Positions 13,974 through 29,473 of a stretch of DNA of 64,000 nucleotides are shown piece after piece. The notes below the pieces were generated by a model. The model was given only the letters and a program-made list of their open reading frames with translations, had not been told where the DNA came from and searched no databases. Origin of the DNA: Anaerolineae bacterium (GTDB lineage Bacteria; Desulfobacterota; Desulfobacteria; Desulfobacterales; ETH-SRB1); NCBI GenBank assembly GCA_035529315.1, contig DATKWZ010000057.1:1-64000 (forward strand). Direction: 5' to 3'. A program made the translations under genes and the position numbers. Every line of letters starts with the position of its first letter. The first letter of the stretch is position 1.

Positions 13974-14993
13974 ATGAGCATTTCACCGGACAAGGAAAAA
14001 GCCGCAGATGCCGCTATAGTTCAAATTGAACGTCAGTTCGGCAAAGGTTCTATTATGAGGCTGGGCAGCCAGCCGATTGTTGATGTTCCGGTAATACCGA
14101 CCGGATCCCTCGCTCTTGACAAGGCGCTGGGCATAGGAGGCCTGCCAAGGGGCAGGGTTATAGAAATTTTTGGCCCGGAATCATCCGGCAAAACAACCCT
14201 GACCCTTAATGTTATTGCAGAAGCTCAGAAAAAGGGCGGCATTGCCGCATTTATAGATGCTGAGCATGCTCTTGATGTCGGGTATGCAAAGAAGCTTGGC
14301 GTGAATTGTGATGAGCTTTTGCTTGCACAGCCTGATACAGGTGAACAGGCGCTTGAAATAGCAGACATGCTGGTTAGAAGCGGAGCAATAGATATCGTGG
14401 TTATAGATTCGGTTGCAGCCCTTGTTCCCAGAGCGGAAATCGAAGGGGAGATGGGTGATTCCCACATGGGGCTTCAAGCCAGACTCATGTCGCAGGCGCT
14501 TAGGAAGCTGACCGCTTCAATAAGCAAAACCATGACATCGGTTATTTTTATAAACCAGATACGCATGAAAATAGGTGTGGTGTTCGGCAATCCTGAAACA
14601 ACTACCGGCGGGAATGCGCTCAAGTTCTATTCCTCTGTAAGGCTTGATATCAGACGCATCGGAGCTATAAAAGAGGGCCAGGATATTACTGGAAACCGTA
14701 CAAGGGTGCGTGTTGTAAAAAACAAGATGGCGCCCCCCTTCAAGGAGGCTGAATTTGACATCACGTATGGTGAAGGCATATCAAAAACAGGCGACCTTGT
14801 TGACGCGGGCGTTGAAGCAGGCATAATTGACAAAAGCGGGTCATGGTATTCATATAATGGAGAGAGAATAGGCCAGGGCCGTGAAAATGTAAAAAAATTC
14901 TTAAGCGAAAATCCGGATATTTATAATTCCGCGGTTGCAAAGGTCAGAGAAGCGCTTGGTCTTTCCGCAAAGGTGGAAGAAGGAACAAAGTAA
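13974..14993 (+). CDS. recA: Recombinase RecA
   Basis: Strand-exchange ATPase and SOS co-protease. 339 residues. Walker [21 protein letters not shown], the L2 region [22 protein letters not shown] and the C-terminal domain are complete. Start follows GGGAGGA. There is no recX; alaS follows after three bases, the recA-alaS linkage seen in many proteobacteria without recX. I could not identify a LexA box with confidence. Confidence 0.98.
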
Positions 14994-18648: not shown

Positions 18649-20187
18649 CTACAATGTTTCAGGTGATATCACAGGATTGGCTTTTAAGTATTCCAGCCTG
18701 TTTAGCCCGTTAATATAAGCCTTGGCGCTGGCTGTGATGATATCCGGATCAGCTCCTCTGCCAAGAGCAATAAGCCCGTCTTCATTTAAGCGCACGGTTA
18801 CCTCTCCCTGTGCATCCGTGCCGCCGGTCAGGGCACTCACAGAAAATCTTAAGAGTTCCGATCCGGTCCCGGTAAGTTTTGCTATTGTGTTAAAAGCCGC
18901 ATCAATCGGCCCGTTCCCATAACCCGCGCCCTGCACAGAGCGTCCGTTTATTATGAGTTTAACACTCGCCATGGGAAGAACCGTTGTCCCGCTTATCACA
19001 TGCAAATACTCCAGGCAGAAAATATCTGTAGTTCGTAATATACCTTCTGTAACAAGAACCTCAAGATCCTCATCCACAATATCTTTTTTCTTATCCGCAA
19101 GCTCCTTGAATTTTTTAAAGATAAGATTTAATTCTTCGTCTGAAAGATCATATCCCAAATCCTTTAGATGTGAGCGCAGGGCATGCCTTCCTGAATGTTT
19201 GCCCAATACAAGCTTGCCGGCGCCGAGACCTATGGTATCAGGCTTCATAATCTCATATGTCATCGGGTTTTTCAACATGCCGTCCTGGTGGATACCTGCT
19301 TCATGCGCAAATGCGTTGGCGCCGACTATAGCCTTATTCGGCTGCACAATAATTCCTGTTATCATGCTGACAAGCCGGCTTGTCGGATAAATCTGCTTGG
19401 TGTTAATATCTGTTGATACCGGGATATAATTGGGTCTTGTATGCAGAGCCATTACAATCTCTTCAAGAGACGTATTTCCCGCCCTTTCTCCGATCCCGTT
19501 TATTGTAACTTCAGCCTGTCTTGCGCCGGCGCTTATTGCCGCAAGAGTATTGGCTGTGGCAAGGCCAAGGTCGTTATGGCAGTGTATGCTCACAATTGCT
19601 TTATGGATATTGGGTGTATGCGCTATTACATATTTAACAAGATCCGCAAATTCCTGTGGAATAGCGTAGCCTACTGTGTCAGGAATATTAATAGTTGTGG
19701 CGCCGGCCTCAATTACGGCCTCAAAAACCCTGCACAAAAAATCACGATCGCTCCTTGATGCATCTTCAGCAGAAAATTCTATGCTGTCAGTAAAAGATCT
19801 CGCATATTTAACCGCTTCAATTGCTTTTTTTACAACCGCATCCCGTGTCATTTTCAGCTTATAGTCCATATGAATATCCGAAGTTGCAATAAAGGTATGT
19901 ATCCTCGGTTTAGCGGCATTACGGATAGCGCCCCAGGCATGATCGATATCTTTTTTGGAAGTTCGCGCCAATGCGGCGACTTCTGTGTTTTTCAACCTGC
20001 CTGCTATTCTGGAAACCGCCTCAAAATCTCCTTCAGATGCGGCAGGAAACCCTGCCTCCAACACATCTACACCGAGTTTTTCCAGTTGCACGGCAATCCG
20101 CAGCTTTTCAGCGGTGTTCATGCTTGCTCCGGGAGACTGCTCACCATCCCTTAGGGTTGTGTCAAATATTATTACTTTTTCATTCAT
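18649..20187 (-). CDS. leuA: 2-isopropylmalate synthase
   Basis: First committed step of leucine synthesis. 512 residues: TIM-barrel catalytic domain ([15 protein letters not shown] at the N-terminus, metal-binding HCHNDLG), linker, and C-terminal LeuA regulatory dimer domain (about 385-500) where leucine feedback acts. Last gene of the ilvD-ilvB-ilvH-ilvC-cimA-leuA run, separated from cimA by a repeat. leuB, leuC and leuD are not in the window. Confidence 0.96.
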
Positions 20188-20211: not shown

Positions 20212-20290
20212 TTGGTCAAGTGGTTGAGTAGGAAATTAGTCGAGTGGTTGACTACTCGACTATCCAACTATTTCTCTACTCGACTATTTT
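20212..20290. repeat. ACTCGAC word-chain repeat, copy 1
   Basis: A chain of TTGAGTAG / TAGTCGAGTGG words and their complements (GACTACTCGACTA, CTCTACTCGACTA), making an imperfect inverted repeat. It contains the cimA stop codon and encodes the last few CimA residues. Relatives lie at 46959-47020 and 58107-58170. Confidence 0.7.
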
Positions 20291-21899
20291 CCAATGCTTT
20301 TTTCCGTTCCTTGGCCAGCTTATACTGAAAACTGTCTGCCAGCGCCTGCCAGCTTGCTTCAATGATATCCTCTGAAGCGCCGATTGTACTCCAGATATCA
20401 TCTTCGTCTCTTGATTCTATTAAAACCCTTACCTTTGCCGCAGTTCCTTTGTCGCCATCTATTACCCGGACTTTGAAATCTACAAGACGCATGGAATCAA
20501 GATCTGTTAAATAAAATTTTTCCAGAGCCTTGCGCAAGGCATTGTCCAGAGCGCCAACCGGCCCATGTCCTTCGGCGGCGGTAATTTCCTCTTTATCGCC
20601 GACAGAAACCTTGATAGTAGCATGAGACGAACACGGATGATCTTTTTCCTTTTCAACGTGAACTCTAAAAGATTTCAGTTCAAATAACGGTTTGAACTGT
20701 TTTGTAAATTTTTCCATAAGTATTTTAAAGGAGCCGTCAGCCGCTTCAAACTGATAACCCTGATCTTCCAGCCGTTTTATTTCAGAAGCGATTTTGCGGC
20801 TGTCAAGCCCCTTGCCATTAAGCTCAATGCCCAGTTCCCTGGCCTTGTATTCTATATTGCTCTTGCCTGAAAGATCCGATATCAAAACACGGCGCTTGTT
20901 CCCCACATACTCAGGATCCATATGTTCATATGCCCCCGGAACCTTCATGATAGCGCTTACATGAATACCGCCCTTGTGGGCAAAAGCGCTTTTGCCCACA
21001 AAGGGCCTGGTGCTTAATGGAATCATGTTCGCAGTCTCGCTGACAAACCTGGAGACCTTTTTTAATTTTGCAAGGTTCTTGTTTGAAATACACGGACAAT
21101 CCATTTTTATACAAAGAATCGGTATAATTGAGGTAAGGTCCGCATTGCCGCATCTTTCTCCATATCCATTGACAGTCCCCTGAACCATAACAGCGCCCGC
21201 GCGGATCGCTGCTATGGAATTGGCCACAGCCAAGCCGCAGTCGTTATGTGTATGAATTCCGATTTTAAGCGCCAGGTCATCTGTTTTTGTGCTCTGTTTT
21301 TCAGCAATGCTTTTTTGTACATTATTTATGATGGATTCTATTTCAAATGGCAGGGTGCCGCCATTTGTATCGCAGAGAACAATAGTGTCTGCGCCGCCTT
21401 CTACAGCAGCCATCAGGGTTTTCAATGCATAACCCGGATTTTTCTTATACCCGTCAAAAAAATGCTCGGCATCGTAGATAACTTCACGATCATTCTTCTT
21501 CAGATACTCGACAGAGTCGCATATCATCGCGAGATTCTCTTTCAAAGTATTTCTCATAACCTGCTCGACATGGAGATCCCATGTCTTTCCGAAAATTGTG
21601 ACAGCAGGAGCGCCGCTTTCAAGAAGCGCATTTAAGTTAGGATCATCATCAGGCTTGATTCCTGGCTTGCGGGTTGCGCCGAATGCAGCAAGACGGGCAT
21701 TTTGAAATTTAATATTTTTCGCCAGCTCAAAAAAGCGTTCGTCCCTGGGATTGGAACCGGGCCAGCCGCCCTCTATGTAATGTATCCCGAGATCATCAAG
21801 CTTCTGTGCGATCTTTATCATTTCTTCAGCGCTGAAACTGATGTTTTCTCCCTGGGCTCCGTCTCTTAAGGTGGTATCATATAGCAGGATAGGTTCCAT
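20268..21899 (-). CDS. cimA: (R)-citramalate synthase
   Basis: Condenses pyruvate with acetyl-CoA, opening the threonine-independent route to isoleucine. 543 residues of the TIGR00977 type: YDTTLRDGAQGENISFS at the N-terminus, GGWPGSNPRD, metal site HTHNDCGLAVAN, and a C-terminal allosteric domain. GAQG instead of GEQSPG and the longer length distinguish it from the adjacent leuA. It lies between ilvC and leuA in the branched-chain operon. Its extreme C-terminus is encoded by a dispersed repeat. Confidence 0.93.
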   Translation of the reverse strand: MEPILLYDTTLRDGAQGENISFSAEEMIKIAQKLDDLGIHYIEGGWPGSNPRDERFFELAKNIKFQNARLAAFGATRKPGIKPDDDPNLNALLESGAPAVTIFGKTWDLHVEQVMRNTLKENLAMICDSVEYLKKNDREVIYDAEHFFDGYKKNPGYALKTLMAAVEGGADTIVLCDTNGGTLPFEIESIINNVQKSIAEKQSTKTDDLALKIGIHTHNDCGLAVANSIAAIRAGAVMVQGTVNGYGERCGNADLTSIIPILCIKMDCPCISNKNLAKLKKVSRFVSETANMIPLSTRPFVGKSAFAHKGGIHVSAIMKVPGAYEHMDPEYVGNKRRVLISDLSGKSNIEYKARELGIELNGKGLDSRKIASEIKRLEDQGYQFEAADGSFKILMEKFTKQFKPLFELKSFRVHVEKEKDHPCSSHATIKVSVGDKEEITAAEGHGPVGALDNALRKALEKFYLTDLDSMRLVDFKVRVIDGDKGTAAKVRVLIESRDEDDIWSTIGASEDIIEASWQALADSFQYKLAKERKKALENSRVEK

Positions 21900-21913: not shown

Positions 21914-22966
21914 TTATTTTTTTCGGTTTTCAGGCCTTAATGATCGAACTGCTGCGCCGGCTTTCCACATTTCTGAATTCTTGATTACATCAAGTTCATT
22001 TTGCAATTTTTCACGATAATCAGGAGCGCTGTTGACTTCGATAACTCTTTTTGTCTCTTTGCCCGACAGAACACTTTCATAGAGGTCGTCAAAGACAGGA
22101 ACCACGGCGTCACGAAACTTTGGAGCCCAATCCAGAGCCCCTCTCTGAGCAGTGGTACTGCAGTTTGAGAACATCCAGTCCATGCCATTTTCCGCCACAA
22201 GTCGTATGAGGCTCTGAGTAAGCTCCTCTACGGTCTCATTAAACGCTTCACTCGGGCTGTGACCATGTTTTCGAAGAAGATTATATTGTGCTTCCATTAC
22301 ACCGGAAAGGCATCCCATTAGAACGCCACGCTCGCCGGTAAGATCGCTACGGACTTCCTTCTCAAAAGTAGTCAGAAAAAGATAACCCGATCCTATAGCA
22401 ATTCCTAATGCAATAGTTCTCTCCTTTGCCTTTCCCGTAAAATCCTGATGAACTGCAAAGCTGGAATTAATGCCGCTGCCGGCCAGAAAGTTAGTGCGCA
22501 CTGTGCGGCCCGATCCTTTTGGGGCCACTAAAACGACATCAACATTTTCCGGAGGCTTAATACCTGTTTGGTCTTTATAAACAATTGAAAATCCGTGCGA
22601 AAAATATAGAGCATCTCCTTCATTAAGACATTCTTTTATCTGAGGCCATGTTGCAACCTGACCAGCATCTGAAAGGAGAAACTGAATAACGGTCCCTTTC
22701 CGTGCCGCCTCCTCAAGAGGAAAAAGTGTTTTGCCTGGAATAAAACCGTCTGCAACAGCATGATCCCATGATGCACCACCTTCACGCTGCCCTACTATAA
22801 CGTTAATACCATTATCCCTCAGGTTCAAAGCCTGCCCAGGTCCCTGCACGCCATAACCTAAAACTGCAACAATTTCATCTTTAAGTACTTCCCTGGCTTT
22901 CTCAAGAGAAAATTCTTCAGATGTAACTACTTCCTCTACAACACCGCCGAAATCGATATTTGCCAT
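21914..22966 (-). CDS. ilvC: Ketol-acid reductoisomerase
   Basis: NADPH-dependent isomeroreductase of Ile/Val synthesis. 350 residues. The Rossmann motif is LGYGVQGPGQALNLRDNG; the metal-site region holds DLTGERG, and AFNETVEELTQSL lies in the C-terminal domain. The sequence is of the subtype I know from Bacteroides IlvC and fungal Ilv5 (GVQGPGQALNLRDNG, LYFSHGF, TTAQRGALDW, C-terminal VRSLRPEN) rather than the common class I form. 14 bases separate it from cimA. Confidence 0.95.
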   Translation of the reverse strand: MANIDFGGVVEEVVTSEEFSLEKAREVLKDEIVAVLGYGVQGPGQALNLRDNGINVIVGQREGGASWDHAVADGFIPGKTLFPLEEAARKGTVIQFLLSDAGQVATWPQIKECLNEGDALYFSHGFSIVYKDQTGIKPPENVDVVLVAPKGSGRTVRTNFLAGSGINSSFAVHQDFTGKAKERTIALGIAIGSGYLFLTTFEKEVRSDLTGERGVLMGCLSGVMEAQYNLLRKHGHSPSEAFNETVEELTQSLIRLVAENGMDWMFSNCSTTAQRGALDWAPKFRDAVVPVFDDLYESVLSGKETKRVIEVNSAPDYREKLQNELDVIKNSEMWKAGAAVRSLRPENRKK

Positions 22967-23037: not shown

Positions 23038-23526
23038 TCATTTTGATTCCCGGAAAAGGGCGATAACCCCTGTTTTTGCGATTTCCTTAATCCCTATCGG
23101 TTTTAGAAGATTCAAAATTGCATGCATTTTGTCTTCATCTCCGGTAACCTCTAAGGTGTAATGCTCCTGCCCGACATCAACCACTTTACACCTGAAAATA
23201 TCTACGATTCTGAGGATTTCAGCCCGGTGTTCAGATCTGGCCTGAACCTTGATAAGGGCCATCTCCCTTTGAACATAACTTGATTCTGTAAGTTCATGTA
23301 CTTTTATCACATTTATAAGCTTGTGAAGCTGCTTCATGATTTGCTCGACAACCGGAGCGTTCGCCTTGGTAACAAGGGTAATCCTGGACACCAGAGCATC
23401 GGTAGTTTCGGCAACAGAAAGACTTTCAATATTATAGCCTCTTCCGCTGAACAATCCTGTGATCCTGCACAGCACCCCCGGCTGGTTGTCAACTAAAATC
23501 GAAAGTATATGTTTTTGTTCAGTCAT
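23038..23526 (-). CDS. ilvH: Acetolactate synthase small (regulatory) subunit
   Basis: 162 residues: an N-terminal ACT domain (ILSILVDNQPGVLCRITGLFSGRGYNIESL) for valine feedback, and the C-terminal ALS_ss domain from about 85 (EMALIKVQA...). Follows ilvB by about 48 bases on the same strand. Confidence 0.96.
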   Translation of the reverse strand: MTEQKHILSILVDNQPGVLCRITGLFSGRGYNIESLSVAETTDALVSRITLVTKANAPVVEQIMKQLHKLINVIKVHELTESSYVQREMALIKVQARSEHRAEILRIVDIFRCKVVDVGQEHYTLEVTGDEDKMHAILNLLKPIGIKEIAKTGVIALFRESK

Positions 23527-23574: not shown

Positions 23575-25260
23575 TCAGGCCAGAAGCATTTCCGTTATAG
23601 GAGCTCCGGCAGGCACCATTGGATAAACACATTCTTCCCTCTCGACAGCAAAGTCCATAATTACTGTTCTAGGTGAAGAAAGGCCTTTTATGAGTACCGG
23701 TTCAACCTCTTCAGGCTTTGTAGCCCTTAAACCAAGGGCTCCGTATGCCTCTGCCAGTTTTACAAAGTCAGGGGCATGCTCCATGCCTGTAGCAGTGTAA
23801 CGTTTGTCGTAGAACAATTCCTGCCACTGCCTGACCATGCCAAGATACTGGTTGTTCAGGATAACGATCTTTACTGGAAGACCGTATTGTTTTGCAGTTG
23901 CCATTTCCTGTATGTTCATCTGAATGCTGCCGTCTCCGGCAATATCCACTACAAGCTTTTTAGGACAGGCCAATTGAGCGCCGATTGCTGCTGGAAGCCC
24001 GAACCCCATAACCCCCAGCCCGCCTGATGTAATAAAATGATTGGGTTTGTTAAAATGATAATACTGCGCGGCCCACATCTGATTCTGCCCAACTTCAGTA
24101 GTTATAATCGCATTGCCTTTAGTCAATTCGTAAAGTTTCTCGACAACATATTGCGGCTTGATAATATTTTTCTGTTTATATGCCAGCGGAGTCGTGCTTT
24201 TCCACTTTTCTATCTGATCCAACCAGGTTTTCCTCTTTTTCTTCAGATCGCCCAGGTCCTCCTTGTCTAAAAGCTTGTTAAGAAGACCAAGGGTTGTTTT
24301 GCAATCACCCACCACAGGGACGGCAACAGGAATATTCTTGCGTATTGATGTGGGATCAATATCAATATGCACAATCTTTGCATTAGGTGCAAATGTATCT
24401 GTTTTTCCGGTAACACGGTCGTCAAAACGGACTCCAACGGCAATCATAAGATCGCAGTCTCCTGAGCACATGTTGGCTCGATATGTGCCATGCATGCCGA
24501 TCATGCCTAACCACAAAGGATCTGTGCCCGGAAATGCTCCAAGCCCCATTAAGGAGCATGTTACAGGGGCCTGGGTTTTATGGGCCAATTCAGTAAGCTC
24601 TTTTGAACCTCTTGAAAGAACAACCCCGCCGCCTGCAAAAATAATCGGCTTTTTGGCATTCTTTATAAGTTTTACCGCCTTTTGCAACTGGTTCATGTTT
24701 GGGCTATAAGTAGGTTTATATGACTTCAGCTCAATTTTTTGGGGCGCTTTGTAAGTTATTGCCGTGCTTGACACATCCTTTGGAAGATCGATCAGCACAG
24801 GCCCCGGTCGGCCGGATGCAGCTATAATAAATGCCTCTTTAACGATTCTTGCAAGATCCTCGGTGCGCTTAACAAGGTAATTGTGCTTGGTGCATGGTCT
24901 TGTTATTCCGACTATATCCACTTCCTGAAAAGCATCATTCCCGATAAGGTGTGTAGGAACCTGACCGGTAAATATAACTATGGGAATGGAGTCCATATAA
25001 GCACTAGCAATTCCGGTCACTGTATTGGTAGCCCCGGGTCCTGATGTTACCAGACAGACACCAACCTTGCCGCTGGCCCTTGCGTAACCATCCGCGGCAT
25101 GAACCGCTGCCTGCTCATGGCGGACCAGTATATGCCGTATATCTGTTTTAGCCAGTTCATCATAAATGTCTATGACAACACCACCAGGAAATCCAAAGAT
25201 AGTGTCAACACCTTCTTCCTTTAGCATTTTCATAAGGATCTGTGCGCCTGTAAGTTTCAT
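23575..25260 (-). CDS. ilvB: Acetolactate synthase large (catalytic) subunit
   Basis: ThDP- and FAD-dependent condensation of pyruvate with pyruvate or 2-ketobutyrate. About 561 residues from ATG 25260, which gives the family start MKLTGAQILMKMLKEEGV and has AAAGGA upstream. The frame stays open to 25368, but that extra part is translated repeat. The ThDP catalytic Glu is in VRHEQAA, and the ThDP motif is GDGSIQMNIQEMATA...NNQYLGMVRQWQ. Third actor of the ilvD-ilvB-ilvH-ilvC set. Confidence 0.96.
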   Translation of the reverse strand: MKLTGAQILMKMLKEEGVDTIFGFPGGVVIDIYDELAKTDIRHILVRHEQAAVHAADGYARASGKVGVCLVTSGPGATNTVTGIASAYMDSIPIVIFTGQVPTHLIGNDAFQEVDIVGITRPCTKHNYLVKRTEDLARIVKEAFIIAASGRPGPVLIDLPKDVSSTAITYKAPQKIELKSYKPTYSPNMNQLQKAVKLIKNAKKPIIFAGGGVVLSRGSKELTELAHKTQAPVTCSLMGLGAFPGTDPLWLGMIGMHGTYRANMCSGDCDLMIAVGVRFDDRVTGKTDTFAPNAKIVHIDIDPTSIRKNIPVAVPVVGDCKTTLGLLNKLLDKEDLGDLKKKRKTWLDQIEKWKSTTPLAYKQKNIIKPQYVVEKLYELTKGNAIITTEVGQNQMWAAQYYHFNKPNHFITSGGLGVMGFGLPAAIGAQLACPKKLVVDIAGDGSIQMNIQEMATAKQYGLPVKIVILNNQYLGMVRQWQELFYDKRYTATGMEHAPDFVKLAEAYGALGLRATKPEEVEPVLIKGLSSPRTVIMDFAVEREECVYPMVPAGAPITEMLLA

Positions 25261-25398
25261 GATAAATCCTTTCTTTTGCTGGTTGCTGGTTACCGGTTGC
25301 TCGTTGTTTGTTGTAAGTGAGCTAACATTAAAATTGGCATGCCGAAAGCGTACCACAACTTTAGGCACTTTAATATACTTTAGGCACTTTAGCGCACT
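25261..25398. repeat. Word-repeat spacer between ilvD and ilvB
   Basis: Contains iterated GGTTGCTGGTTACCGGTTGC near 25280 and two copies of ACTTTAGGCACTTTA-type words near 25360-25395. The pattern is similar in style to, but different in sequence from, the ACTCGAC chains. No gene. Confidence 0.6.
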
Positions 25399-27069
25399 TT
25401 ATTTTACTATAGCCCCCTTGTCGGCAGAAGAAACCATTCGAGCATATCTGGCCATATATCCATGTGTTATCTTTGGTTCAGGAGGCGACCACAAGGCAAA
25501 TCTATCCTTGATTTTCTCTTCAGTAACCTTGAGAGTTATTTTTTTGCCTGGAATATCGATTGATATAAGATCCCCTTCTTTAACAATTGCAATAGGCCCT
25601 CCCTGCATGGCTTCCGGCGAAACATGCCCTATGGATGCGCCTTTAGTGCCTCCTGAAAAACGGCCGTCTGTGATAAGCGCAACATGAGCGTCTAATTTCA
25701 TGCCGGCAATTGCAGAAGTCGGAGTTAGCATTTCCCGCATTCCAGGGCCGCCCATGGGCCCTTCATAACGTATGACGATAACATCCCCCTTTTTTATATT
25801 GCCGTTCATAATAGCCTGGACGGCATCTTCTTCAGAATCAAAAACCCTGGCAGGCCCTTCATGGCGCAACATCTCATCTAAAACCGCAGACTGTTTTACA
25901 ATGCATCCATCAGGTGCAAGGTTTCCGAAAAGTACGGCAAGACCTCCATACTTATGATACGGGTTGTCTACAGGCCGTATGATATCCTTATCCAGCGTTT
26001 GAACATCTGCAACATTGTCGTGGATCGTTTTTCCGGTTACAGTCATGCAGTCATTGTTGATAAGGCCCGCATGTAACAGCTCATTGATTAGAGCGCTGAT
26101 GCCTCCCGCACGATTCAGATCCTCTATGTGGTGTTTGCCTCCAGGGCTGAGCGAGCAAAGATGAGGTGTCGCCTTGCTGATTTCGTTGATCATATTAAGG
26201 TCGATATTTACCTTTGCTTCATTTGCAATTGCCAGAAGATGCAGGGCTGTGTTGGTGGAACAGCCAAGCGCCATGTCAACTGTAAGAGCATTTTTAAACG
26301 CCTTTTCAGTCATGATTTTTTTCGGAGTAATCTGCTGCTTTAAAAGGCTGATTATCTGCATTCCAGCCTCTTTGGCCAGACGGATACGCGCGGCCATCAC
26401 GGCAGGAATTGTGCCGTTGCCTGGCAATCCCATGCCTATGGCCTCGGTCAAACAGTTCATGGAGTTGGCGGTAAACATGCCGGCACATGACCCGCAGGTT
26501 GGACAGGCGGCATTTTCAATAGAGGTCAAGTCCTCTTCCGACATCCTGCCTGAAAGCACTGCGCCGACAGCTTCAAAAACAGTGATAAGGTCGATTTTCC
26601 CTGTCCCTGTTTGATTTGGATTATCTCCGGCCAGCATAGGGCCTCCGCTTATTACAATTGTGGGAAGATCCAGGCGTGCGGCAGCCATCAGCATTCCAGG
26701 CACGATCTTATCGCAATTTACAACCATAACCATGGCATCAAATGCATGGGCGGTAGCCATCACCTCAATTGAATCGGCGATAAGTTCACGGCTCGCGAGA
26801 GAATACTTCATTCCGGTATGATTCATGGCAATGCCGTCACAAACACCGATAGTACCGAATTCTACAGGGGTGCCGCCCCCCATATAAACTCCGGCCTTTA
26901 CAGCTTCTACAATTTTATCAAGATGGATATGACCCGGAATAATCGCATTGGCTGAATTGGCAATGCCTATAAGAGGCCTTTTCAGCTCGGCATCAGTATA
27001 TCCCATTGACTTAAAGAGGCTTCGATGAGGCGCCCTTTCGATACCTTTTTTAACAATATCGCTTTTCAT
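25399..27069 (-). CDS. ilvD: Dihydroxy-acid dehydratase
   Basis: Iron-sulfur dehydratase of Ile/Val synthesis, about 556 residues. Cluster cysteines appear in [10 protein letters not shown] and [19 protein letters not shown]. The C-terminal motif [15 protein letters not shown] is present. I chose ATG 27069 ([11 protein letters not shown]), preceded by AGGAGG, over an upstream open start. First structural gene of the branched-chain operon, directly behind a leader-peptide attenuator. Confidence 0.97.
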
Positions 27070-27104: not shown

Positions 27105-27149
27105 TCAAAAAAAAATCCGTTACCAGATTTAGGAGCTGATAACGGATTT
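27105..27149 (-). terminator. Attenuator terminator upstream of ilvD
   Basis: On the minus strand AAATCCGTTA and TAACGGATTT form a perfect 10-bp stem (27113-27122 with 27140-27149). A 17-base loop can close further by CAG/CTG. Nine T follow. It lies between the leader peptide and ilvD, 36 bases before the ilvD start, so readthrough is needed for operon expression. Confidence 0.85.
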
Positions 27150-27182
27150 TATATTCTTTATAATAATATAATTAAGCCATTA

Positions 27183-27272
27183 TTAAGCCCCGTGCTCGCA
27201 GCAGGTTAGGACACCTGCGACGAGGACAATAATTAGACCAATAAGGCTATAAATAGCTGATAATTTTTTCAT
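27183..27272 (-). CDS. ilvL: Branched-chain attenuator leader peptide
   Basis: A 29-residue reading frame with 12 Ile, Leu or Val residues. The core IGLIIVLVAGVL has 9 of 12 branched-chain residues. It ends about 34 bases before an intrinsic terminator that precedes ilvD. Codons 19-25 lie in a hairpin with arms GCAGGT/ACCTGC (27201-27218), fitting a pause structure. The string TTATCAGCT in codons 4-6 recurs exactly in the 5' arm region of the terminator. By analogy with enterobacterial ilvL, stalling at scarce charged tRNA would permit readthrough. The ribosome site is weak. A small membrane or lipoprotein-like peptide is the alternative reading. Confidence 0.82.
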   Translation of the reverse strand: MKKLSAIYSLIGLIIVLVAGVLTCCEHGA

Positions 27273-27299
27273 AATCTTTATTATTAGTTTTAAAGTAAT

Positions 27300-27328
27300 T
27301 CTCTAACAAACCTTATACATAGTGTCAA
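27300..27328 (-). promoter_or_regulatory. Promoter of the branched-chain operon
   Basis: TTGACA (27323-27328) is followed after 17 bases by TAGAGA (27300-27305), about 28 bases before the leader-peptide ATG. The -35 box is perfect and the -10 box is weak (3/6), so the exact -10 is uncertain. Confidence 0.55.
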
Positions 27329-27540: not shown

Positions 27541-28413
27541 ATGTCTTTGCTTAAGTCTCTTCTTTATGCTTTGAAAGAAGCTAAATATAATCCTGTAACC
27601 ATAATCCATGGTACGTTATATGCGGCTACAGCAACCTATTTGAGGGTCTTGAAAAAACTTGTAAAGCTAAATCCCAAATCCTTTCGCAACCATACATGCG
27701 AAACGTATCATGGCAAAGTGGTTCGATTGGATGATGCAGCCAAATTCATTACCATTAATAGGAATATTGAACTCAGGAACCTGGATCAGGTACTTCCATA
27801 TAAATATGCAAAGGACATTATACTCAAAAATCCTCAAAATATCGTAGTTTATGAATGCCCTTGCAGAGCTCAAAAAAGTGATCCGTGCAAACCAACAGAT
27901 GTATGTTTGGTTGTTGGTGAGCCTTTTGCTGATCTGGCCCGTATGGTTCAGCCGTTTCGTTCCCGCAGAATAACTCCGGAAGAGGCGTTAAGGATTCTGA
28001 AAGAAGAGGATCAGAGGGGTCACGTCCATACGGCGTGGTTTAAAAAAGCTATGCTAAATCGTTTTTACGCGATTTGCAACTGTTGTAAGTGCTGCTGTTT
28101 GGGATTGGAATTCATGTTTGAATACAACATGAAAACAGTTCTTCCATCAGGATATAGTGCGGTTGTCGGAGAGGATTGTATCGGTTGTGGTGAATGTGCA
28201 AAATATTGTCAATTCGATGCAATAGAAATCATCTCGATTTTGGATAACGGCAAAGAAAAGAAAAAGGTTAAGATTATTTCTGAGAGATGTTTTGGTTGCG
28301 GAATATGCGAAAGTAAATGTAAAAAAGAAAATATCTCGCTGTTATTGGATGCTGAAAAAGGGATTCCGTTGAATATCGAAACACTGGCACAATCTACTCA
28401 AAAGGTGGTCTAA
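27541..28413 (+). CDS. Cys-rich 4Fe-4S dicluster protein
   Basis: 290 residues. The N-terminal 100 residues have no motif I recognise. Then come C106-P-C108-R, C116 and C122, followed by a dense CNCCKCCC block (C179-C186), then two ferredoxin clusters (C213/216/219/223 and C250/253/256/260) in a CxxCxxCxxxC pattern. No membrane segment is obvious. The two ferredoxin motifs should hold 4Fe-4S clusters; the two extra Cys groups could bind a further cluster or metal. Related proteins are annotated only as 4Fe-4S proteins. Its 3' end overlaps that of convergent rtcA by 20 bases. Confidence 0.8.
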   Translation: MSLLKSLLYALKEAKYNPVTIIHGTLYAATATYLRVLKKLVKLNPKSFRNHTCETYHGKVVRLDDAAKFITINRNIELRNLDQVLPYKYAKDIILKNPQNIVVYECPCRAQKSDPCKPTDVCLVVGEPFADLARMVQPFRSRRITPEEALRILKEEDQRGHVHTAWFKKAMLNRFYAICNCCKCCCLGLEFMFEYNMKTVLPSGYSAVVGEDCIGCGECAKYCQFDAIEIISILDNGKEKKKVKIISERCFGCGICESKCKKENISLLLDAEKGIPLNIETLAQSTQKVV

Positions 28414-29473
28414 ATTTAAAGCTCCGCAAACTTTCCTGCAAAAGAGTAATTTGCCAGATGTCCTTGCTGATCTGGTCCATGCTGATTCCAATGTCCATGA
28501 AAAGCTTTAATACTTCGGAATTTGTCCTGGTGTGCGCACTTGGTTTAAGGGTGTTATAGGATCCGCCGCCGGCCAGGGCAAAGGGAAGGAGCAGCTGATC
28601 AGCGAGATGATCGCAGACAGGCACACCGGCATCCAGATAGCGGAGAGCTGCTTTAGCGGCCTTGTCAGCCACGGTTTCCGCTCTTACGCCTCTCTCGCCA
28701 AAACCGGTAAATACCTCTGAGATGTATTCGCTTTTAATCTCAATTGTGACAATGTTGCCGGGACCCATGTCAGCCGGTTCTTCCTTGATATAGAGGCATT
28801 CTTCACCCCATCCAAGCTTTTGCCCGACTACACCGATTTCTCGTTGTGCAATATGACGGGGCAGGCCGGCCACAGTGGCAGTGGCGCGCTGCTCCAGAAT
28901 TTTTCCTCGCTCATGGAGATAGAAGGCTTGAAGGTTTTTAGCAGGCTGGATTGTCACGCTCAACCTGCCTCCCCCTTTGGGATAGTACCCCGGACGTTCC
29001 AGGCGTGCTTCGACCGTTGGTCCCATCCGGTTGATGATGGGCAGGAAGACCTGTTGCAGAAAGTCAAAGGTAGGGGCAAAAGGGTTATGTGTGCCGCCTT
29101 CGAGTATCAGTGTTGACGGCCCGTTTGCGATCAGCAAGGCAGGAAGTACCGATTGCAGCACCAGAGCGGTGCTGCCGGCAGTCCCGATGTCAAAATGGTA
29201 ATGACCGGGCCTGATGGTCGTTGGAATGAATATCAATTCCTGAGAGCCAAGTGCCGCACCTTCGATCCTGGCGTCACCGATCTTTGCTGCGGCATTGGCA
29301 CAGACCAGGTGCTGGTATCTGAAGCCCGGTTTCTTGCGTCGTGAGCGCAGGTTTACGATACGAAAAGGTTTGCCTGAACATAACGAAAGAGCGAGGGATG
29401 TGCGCAGTATTTGCCCCCCTCCCTCGCCCATTGCTCCGTTAATCGTTACTAGGGCGCCTCTTTTGTCCATCAT
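28394..29473 (-). CDS. rtcA: RNA 3'-terminal phosphate cyclase
   Basis: Converts RNA 3'-phosphate to a 2',3'-cyclic phosphate with ATP through an enzyme-adenylate. 359 residues. Visible are GAMGEGGGQILRTSLALS at the N-terminus, FDIGTAGSTALVLQS, RPGYYPKGGG and the catalytic His in AHTRTNSEV near the C-terminus. RtcB and the RtcR activator are absent here. The DNA looks clearly more GC-rich than the neighbours, which suggests acquisition by transfer. Start ATGATG follows GTGGGAA. Confidence 0.95.
   Translation of the reverse strand: MMDKRGALVTINGAMGEGGGQILRTSLALSLCSGKPFRIVNLRSRRKKPGFRYQHLVCANAAAKIGDARIEGAALGSQELIFIPTTIRPGHYHFDIGTAGSTALVLQSVLPALLIANGPSTLILEGGTHNPFAPTFDFLQQVFLPIINRMGPTVEARLERPGYYPKGGGRLSVTIQPAKNLQAFYLHERGKILEQRATATVAGLPRHIAQREIGVVGQKLGWGEECLYIKEEPADMGPGNIVTIEIKSEYISEVFTGFGERGVRAETVADKAAKAALRYLDAGVPVCDHLADQLLLPFALAGGGSYNTLKPSAHTRTNSEVLKLFMDIGISMDQISKDIWQITLLQESLRSFKFRPPFE

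Follow-up and report, generated by a model that had tools for sequence, protein, structure and literature searches.

What governs the branched-chain amino acid (BCAA) operon of this genome, and does the short region in front of its first gene, ilvD, act as a regulatory switch? The window (the whole stretch of 64,000 nucleotides analyzed here) is one of the contigs of a 2.2 Mb assembly; the nearest named relatives of its ilvD belong to Candidatus Desulfaltia (97% and 91%); as a broader group, the ilvD neighbors come from Desulfobacterales, among them Desulfonema magnum 4be13 and Desulfosarcina cetonica. A sequence-only reading of the region had proposed an Ile/Leu/Val leader-peptide attenuator. 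The present analysis supports this proposal and adds an antiterminator that the earlier reading had missed, which exists and covaries. As judged from the nucleotide sequences of the window and its relatives, the ilvD-ilvB-ilvH-ilvC-cimA-leuA operon is very probably controlled by a classical three-state, ribosome-stalling Ile/Leu/Val attenuator.

The operon and its upstream region

All six genes named in the sequence-only reading were matched by curated NCBIfam models, from which the names below are taken; the gaps between them are 14-80 nt.

25402..27069, minus strand: ilvD, dihydroxy-acid dehydratase, the first structural gene (TIGR00110, 797.8 bits; Shine-Dalgarno (SD) sequence AGGAGG at 27084-27079)
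23575..25368, minus strand: ilvB, acetolactate synthase large subunit (TIGR00118)
23038..23526, minus strand: ilvH, acetolactate synthase small subunit (TIGR00119)
21914..22966, minus strand: ilvC, ketol-acid reductoisomerase (TIGR00465)
20268..21899, minus strand: cimA, citramalate synthase (TIGR00977, 726.9 bits)
18649..20187, minus strand: leuA, 2-isopropylmalate synthase (TIGR00973, 737.4 bits)

The most likely start of ilvD is the ATG at 27069, behind the AGGAGG at 27084-27079, in favor of which a mechanically called TTG start at 27108 was set aside. The attenuator is located on the minus strand as well, between ilvD and a ferredoxin-domain gene (27541, plus strand); because this neighbor is divergent, the possibility that the terminator described below belongs to an upstream gene is ruled out. 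A gene for RtcA (RNA 3'-terminal phosphate cyclase) is also found close to the operon (window positions 28394-29473, minus strand). The parts of the attenuator are the following:

27300..27328, minus strand: promoter, with the -35 element TTGACA at 27328-27323, a 17-nt spacer and an extended -10 element TGT-TAGAGA at 27308-27300
27272..27183, minus strand: putative leader peptide ORF of 29 codons, 12 of them for Ile, Leu or Val (MKKLSAIYSLIGLIIVLVAGVLTCCEHGA); an ILV-rich leader is found at the same place in 80 members of the order
27245..27258, minus strand: R1, the protector 5' arm within the leader codons, AGCTATTTATAGCC (order consensus CCATTATCAACC), delineated by alignment, pair counts and duplex energy
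27195..27224, minus strand: H, the inner hairpin nested in R1:R2, delineated by folding and by compensatory changes at 10 of its 12 pairs in 52 sequences
27177..27191, minus strand: R2, GGGGCTTAATAATGG, overlapping the leader stop codon (27185-27183), with R1 or R3 as its partner
27136..27150, minus strand: R3, the terminator 5' arm and antiterminator 3' arm; the antiterminator pairing reaches to about 27132
27107..27126, minus strand: R4, the terminator 3' arm and U-tract (nine T), delineated by sequence and pair counts

The TTGACA promoter of the sequence-only reading is present, and 70 of 77 relatives have an exact TTGACA upstream of their leader, where shuffled sequences would lead one to expect 1.7; it lies 39-98 nt, mostly 56-70 nt, from the leader start and is followed at a spacing of 17 by a conserved TGnTA. 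Therefore, transcription should begin upstream of the leader and not downstream of the terminator, an arrangement that would have told against the attenuator. A scan of the window for promoters and terminators detected neither the promoter nor the terminator of the attenuator, owing to the strictness of its patterns.

Alternative helices and the proposed switch

The four arms are linked by overlapping complementarity: R2 is complementary to both R1 and R3, and R3 is also complementary to R4. The consensus sequences in the 52-sequence alignment are CCATTATCAACC for R1, GGTTGATAATGG for R2, CCGTTATCAGCC for R3 and GCTGRTAACGG for R4. In the window, an intrinsic terminator (AAAATCCGTTATCAG-loop-CTGGTAACGGATTTT and then nine T, 27150-27107) separates the leader ORF from the first structural gene. 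Its arms, 27150-27136 with 27126-27112, form 15 bp including one G-U pair, with the T-run at 27115-27107; thus, the terminator and the nine T of the earlier reading hold, but the perfect 10-bp stem gives way to a longer, imperfect one. The inner GCAGGT/ACCTGC hairpin exists too and extends further than described, its arms (27224-27213 with 27206-27195) being paired at 11 of 12 positions. The leader string TTATCAGCT is indeed repeated, but was rejected as the R1 arm in the window species because it binds R2 weakly (-5.5 kcal/mol), compared with -15.3 kcal/mol for the duplex between R2 and the adjacent, conserved R1. The leader RNA folds better than any of 200 shuffles (z = -5.7). In the window sequence, the fold from R1 to R2, including the inner hairpin, amounts to -32.1 kcal/mol, and the antiterminator R2:R3 (about -14.7 kcal/mol) and the terminator R3:R4 (about -16.1 kcal/mol) are balanced.

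Pairing was counted on the 52-sequence alignment, with slid pairings and shuffles as controls. In these counts, which include related sequences and are not probabilities, 96.5% of the cells were paired in the terminator R3:R4 (5 pairs changed on both sides; best slid control 57.8%), 92.9% in the antiterminator R2:R3 (4 pairs changed on both sides; 60.0%), 78.8% in the inner hairpin (10 of 12 pairs changed on both sides; 56.3%) and 78.3% in the protector R1:R2 (51.0%). Compensatory changes are present in all four helices, among them the inner hairpin and the terminator, the two for which a covariation test was proposed in the sequence-only reading. The shuffle control was passed on most measures. 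The weakest case is R1:R2, for which 130 of 500 shuffles equaled the count of pairs changed on both sides; this protector hairpin, which would sequester the antiterminator arm in an untranslated leader, is the least well conserved helix. The antiterminator and the terminator are mutually exclusive and both are supported by the pair counts, so that the element appears to be a switch, more than a terminator.

The R3/R4 sequence is unusually constant across the order, as might be expected if the dyad CCGTTATCAG...CTGATAACGG were a repressor-binding operator in the DNA and not part of an RNA switch. We give this interpretation hardly any credence, given that the loop separating the arms ranges in length from about 3 to 17 nt, that a T-run nearly always follows the dyad, that compensatory changes occur also in R2:R3, and that the dyad is located about 150-190 nt downstream of the promoter. 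Under attenuation, the constancy of R3 and R4 is accounted for by R2 and R3 each having two partners.

The geometry of the leader relative to R2 is nearly fixed. In 76 of the 80 leaders, the stop codon starts at +3, +6 or +14 nt relative to the beginning of R2, a placement at which a ribosome could mask the antiterminator arm; with the stop codon inside R2 at such offsets, R2 must be covered by a ribosome that has reached the stop. The median distance between the last control codon and R2 is 18 nt (80 leaders), so that R2 should stay accessible when a ribosome stalls on that codon. The size of the ribosome footprint underlies both the masking and the freeing argument.

From this anatomy and its conservation we infer the following switching. 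Transcription would start about 20 nt before the leader ORF (the exact start is a prediction), and a ribosome would trail RNA polymerase through the leader. With charged tRNA for Ile, Leu or Val in short supply, the ribosome would stall on codons 7-22 and open R1 and/or the inner hairpin; R2, thereby freed, would pair with R3 into the antiterminator, and polymerase would enter ilvD-ilvB-ilvH-ilvC-cimA-leuA. A ribosome that translates the leader to its stop would cover R2, R3 would then pair with R4, and transcription in the cell would end about 185 nt from its start. In an untranslated leader, R1 would hold R2 and the terminator would form again.

The putative leader peptide

The 29-residue ORF with 12 branched-chain residues is present as described in the sequence-only reading, and this putative leader is enriched in codons for the amino acids that the operon is predicted to produce. 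By itself, an ILV-rich ORF is not rare: the window contains a second short ORF with 10 of 14 residues being Ile, Leu or Val, and random sequence yields about 0.8 such ORFs per 1000 short ORFs. The ORF alone is therefore insufficient, and it is position, terminator and conservation together that rule out a chance origin. The 80 usable leaders of the order span 25-41 codons (median 29 residues), a size easily overlooked by gene callers, and 77 of them start with ATG. The conservation of Ile/Leu/Val codons expected in the earlier reading is apparent: I+L+V account for 79% of the best 14 residues, and A+F+M+C for only about 2% of the core residues. The 80 leaders average 11.1 ILV per 14 residues in the coding frame, and 5.5 and 2.4 in the other frames, a comparison that is partly circular because the ORF was picked as the ILV-richest, yet nearly all loci have no comparable rival ORF. 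Only 20 of 77 leaders have an SD-like tetramer in front of them (6 in shuffles), and hence initiation of leader translation may be weak.

Since the peptide is hydrophobic and resembles a transmembrane segment or a lipoprotein signal, it could, in principle, function as a small membrane protein expressed together with the operon, the terminator only setting a basal level. We regard this as extremely unlikely. The leader composition given above is unlike that of transmembrane helices, and the C-termini differ among relatives, some ending in CEEG(A) and others in GLIMA, because a near-identical conserved RNA stretch is read in different frames. Within the genus, pairwise codon differences (26 synonymous, 60 non-synonymous) display no synonymous excess, that is, no sign of purifying selection on the residues. 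The lack of such an excess gives no coding signature and fits a sensor peptide constrained at the RNA level; combined with the frame-shifted endings, it indicates that what has been preserved in the peptide is a run of ILV codons together with the RNA arms, and not a protein.

Strong and conserved RNA structure at the ilvD leader would also be compatible with control by a ligand-binding riboswitch, sensing BCAA or ppGpp, or by a T-box, with the ORF being incidental, and riboswitch classes, including the ppGpp class, and T-boxes do control amino acid genes in other phyla (PMC8632094, PMC3766115). However, the window and 8 relatives produced no T-box (RF00230), ppGpp riboswitch or other Rfam match at the gathering level, and relaxed E-values brought up nothing credible; 80 members of the order retain start codon, frame and ILV content, whereas loops and spacers vary freely; and most of the conserved nucleotides are explained by the arms R1 to R4, the hairpin H and the codons. 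This explanation is thus very improbable, if slightly less so than the operator and the membrane protein, and attenuation by ribosome stalling remains our preferred reading.

Distribution and relation to known attenuators

Among 89 ilvD upstream regions taken from the order Desulfobacterales, the same terminator core is present in 81, in nearly all cases together with an ILV-rich leader. The cultured Desulfonema magnum 4be13 has the element in front of its ilvD. A covariance model of the element produced one high-scoring match in the genome of the window and matches in 179 of the 192 genomes (about 93%) of the class sample, all of which are listed as the same order; peptide and terminator are thus conserved in relatives, as the sequence-only reading implied. 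In the sample of the phylum Desulfobacterota, 41 of 395 genomes match, 26 of these outside the order. At loci whose first gene is another than ilvD, the elements inspected within the order precede ilvB or cimA, and the inspected copies outside the order mostly precede cimA, leuA or ilvB (names of these non-ilvD genes were read from translated sequence rather than from a family search); most of the inspected copies before non-ilvD genes share the core UUAUCAG/CUGAUAA. We lean slightly toward the view that these are one homologous BCAA attenuator RNA, its four-arm core kept, which goes back to the ancestry of much of Desulfobacterota and has either travelled with operons starting with ilvD, ilvB, cimA or leuA or been copied from one of these operons to another. 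If true, leader-peptide attenuation would be old and general in Desulfobacterota, and not mainly gammaproteobacterial. In almost every locus inspected, the element is thus followed by ilvD, ilvB, cimA or leuA. Exceptions are single copies before a DppA/M55-like peptidase gene, which is not biosynthetic (an extra copy; G022:C1165:425-600), and before an acyl-CoA dehydrogenase gene (G536:C70:4820-5000), perhaps one of BCAA catabolism or carbon metabolism.

BCAA attenuators are established in enterobacteria and Corynebacterium, and the study of Vitreschak et al. 2004 reportedly covers mainly gamma- and alphaproteobacteria. As in the ilvL/ilvGMEDA, ilvBN and leuLABCD attenuators of Escherichia coli and Salmonella, the element described here combines a leader peptide of ILV codons, a protector arm, and mutually exclusive antiterminator and terminator with a biosynthetic operon; unlike them, it has other arm sequences, belongs to another phylum and serves ilvD-, ilvB-, cimA- or leuA-first operons with one element. 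It is predicted to work like ilvL/leuL yet is outside the Rfam Leu_leader family (RF00512, no match in the window or 8 relatives at the gathering level and none credible at relaxed E-values), and no Rfam family matches it. The proposed mechanism is also that of the BCAA attenuators predicted in proteobacteria by Vitreschak et al. 2004, as cited in PMC1262725, where attenuator patterns with several interactions are described as conserved over large distances; multi-partner patterns are conserved here too. The ilvB-II uORF motif, or ilvBNC attenuator, known from Corynebacterium only (103 representatives), likewise has a BCAA-rich uORF, a terminator and an antiterminator before ilvB (PMC10272879, PMC11857589) but is built from two main stems, P1 and P2, the loop of P1 containing the antiterminator arm, in contrast to the four-arm layout here; according to a published proposal, ilvB is commonly subject to attenuation by uORFs (PMC10272879). 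In literature searches that covered mainly open papers, we found no published description of a Desulfobacterota BCAA attenuator. Judged on Rfam and open papers, this is a new, previously undescribed and widespread attenuator of the known ribosome-stalling type, and it runs counter to the possible gammaproteobacterial origin, with few transfers, that one survey suggested for amino-acid attenuators (PMC3766115). An Rfam family could be founded on the covariance model. For Desulfobacterales, an environmentally important order that includes many sulfate reducers, the element provides a concrete, testable regulatory RNA.

To look for other attenuators, only searches by family and by protein were used. 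The case for a histidine leader in front of hisG was unconvincing. A weak second match of the covariance model in the window genome turned out to be a different, Phe/Tyr-rich attenuator, in which the Phe/Tyr/Trp-rich leader MHKFSGKYFSFYRYYFYNTGLPEVR and a GCCGTGG-type terminator are followed by a second hairpin with a T-run (G000:C20, about 14427-14583, minus strand). It precedes an ADH synthase-like (DhnA-type) gene of the archaeal-type aromatic pathway; leader and terminator are conserved in most of 27 loci, across the order, and possibly represent an undescribed aromatic attenuator. Short ORFs containing WWW (e.g., MKTIGNHKIKNLLFIWWWQTYINEFAGGTSPT) are found upstream of trpE (G000:C6, 44348-45742, minus strand) in the window genome and in several relatives, and are likely Trp leader peptides. 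The co-occurrence of BCAA, Phe/Tyr/Trp and Trp leaders in the same genomes suggests that attenuation generally controls amino acid synthesis in these bacteria.
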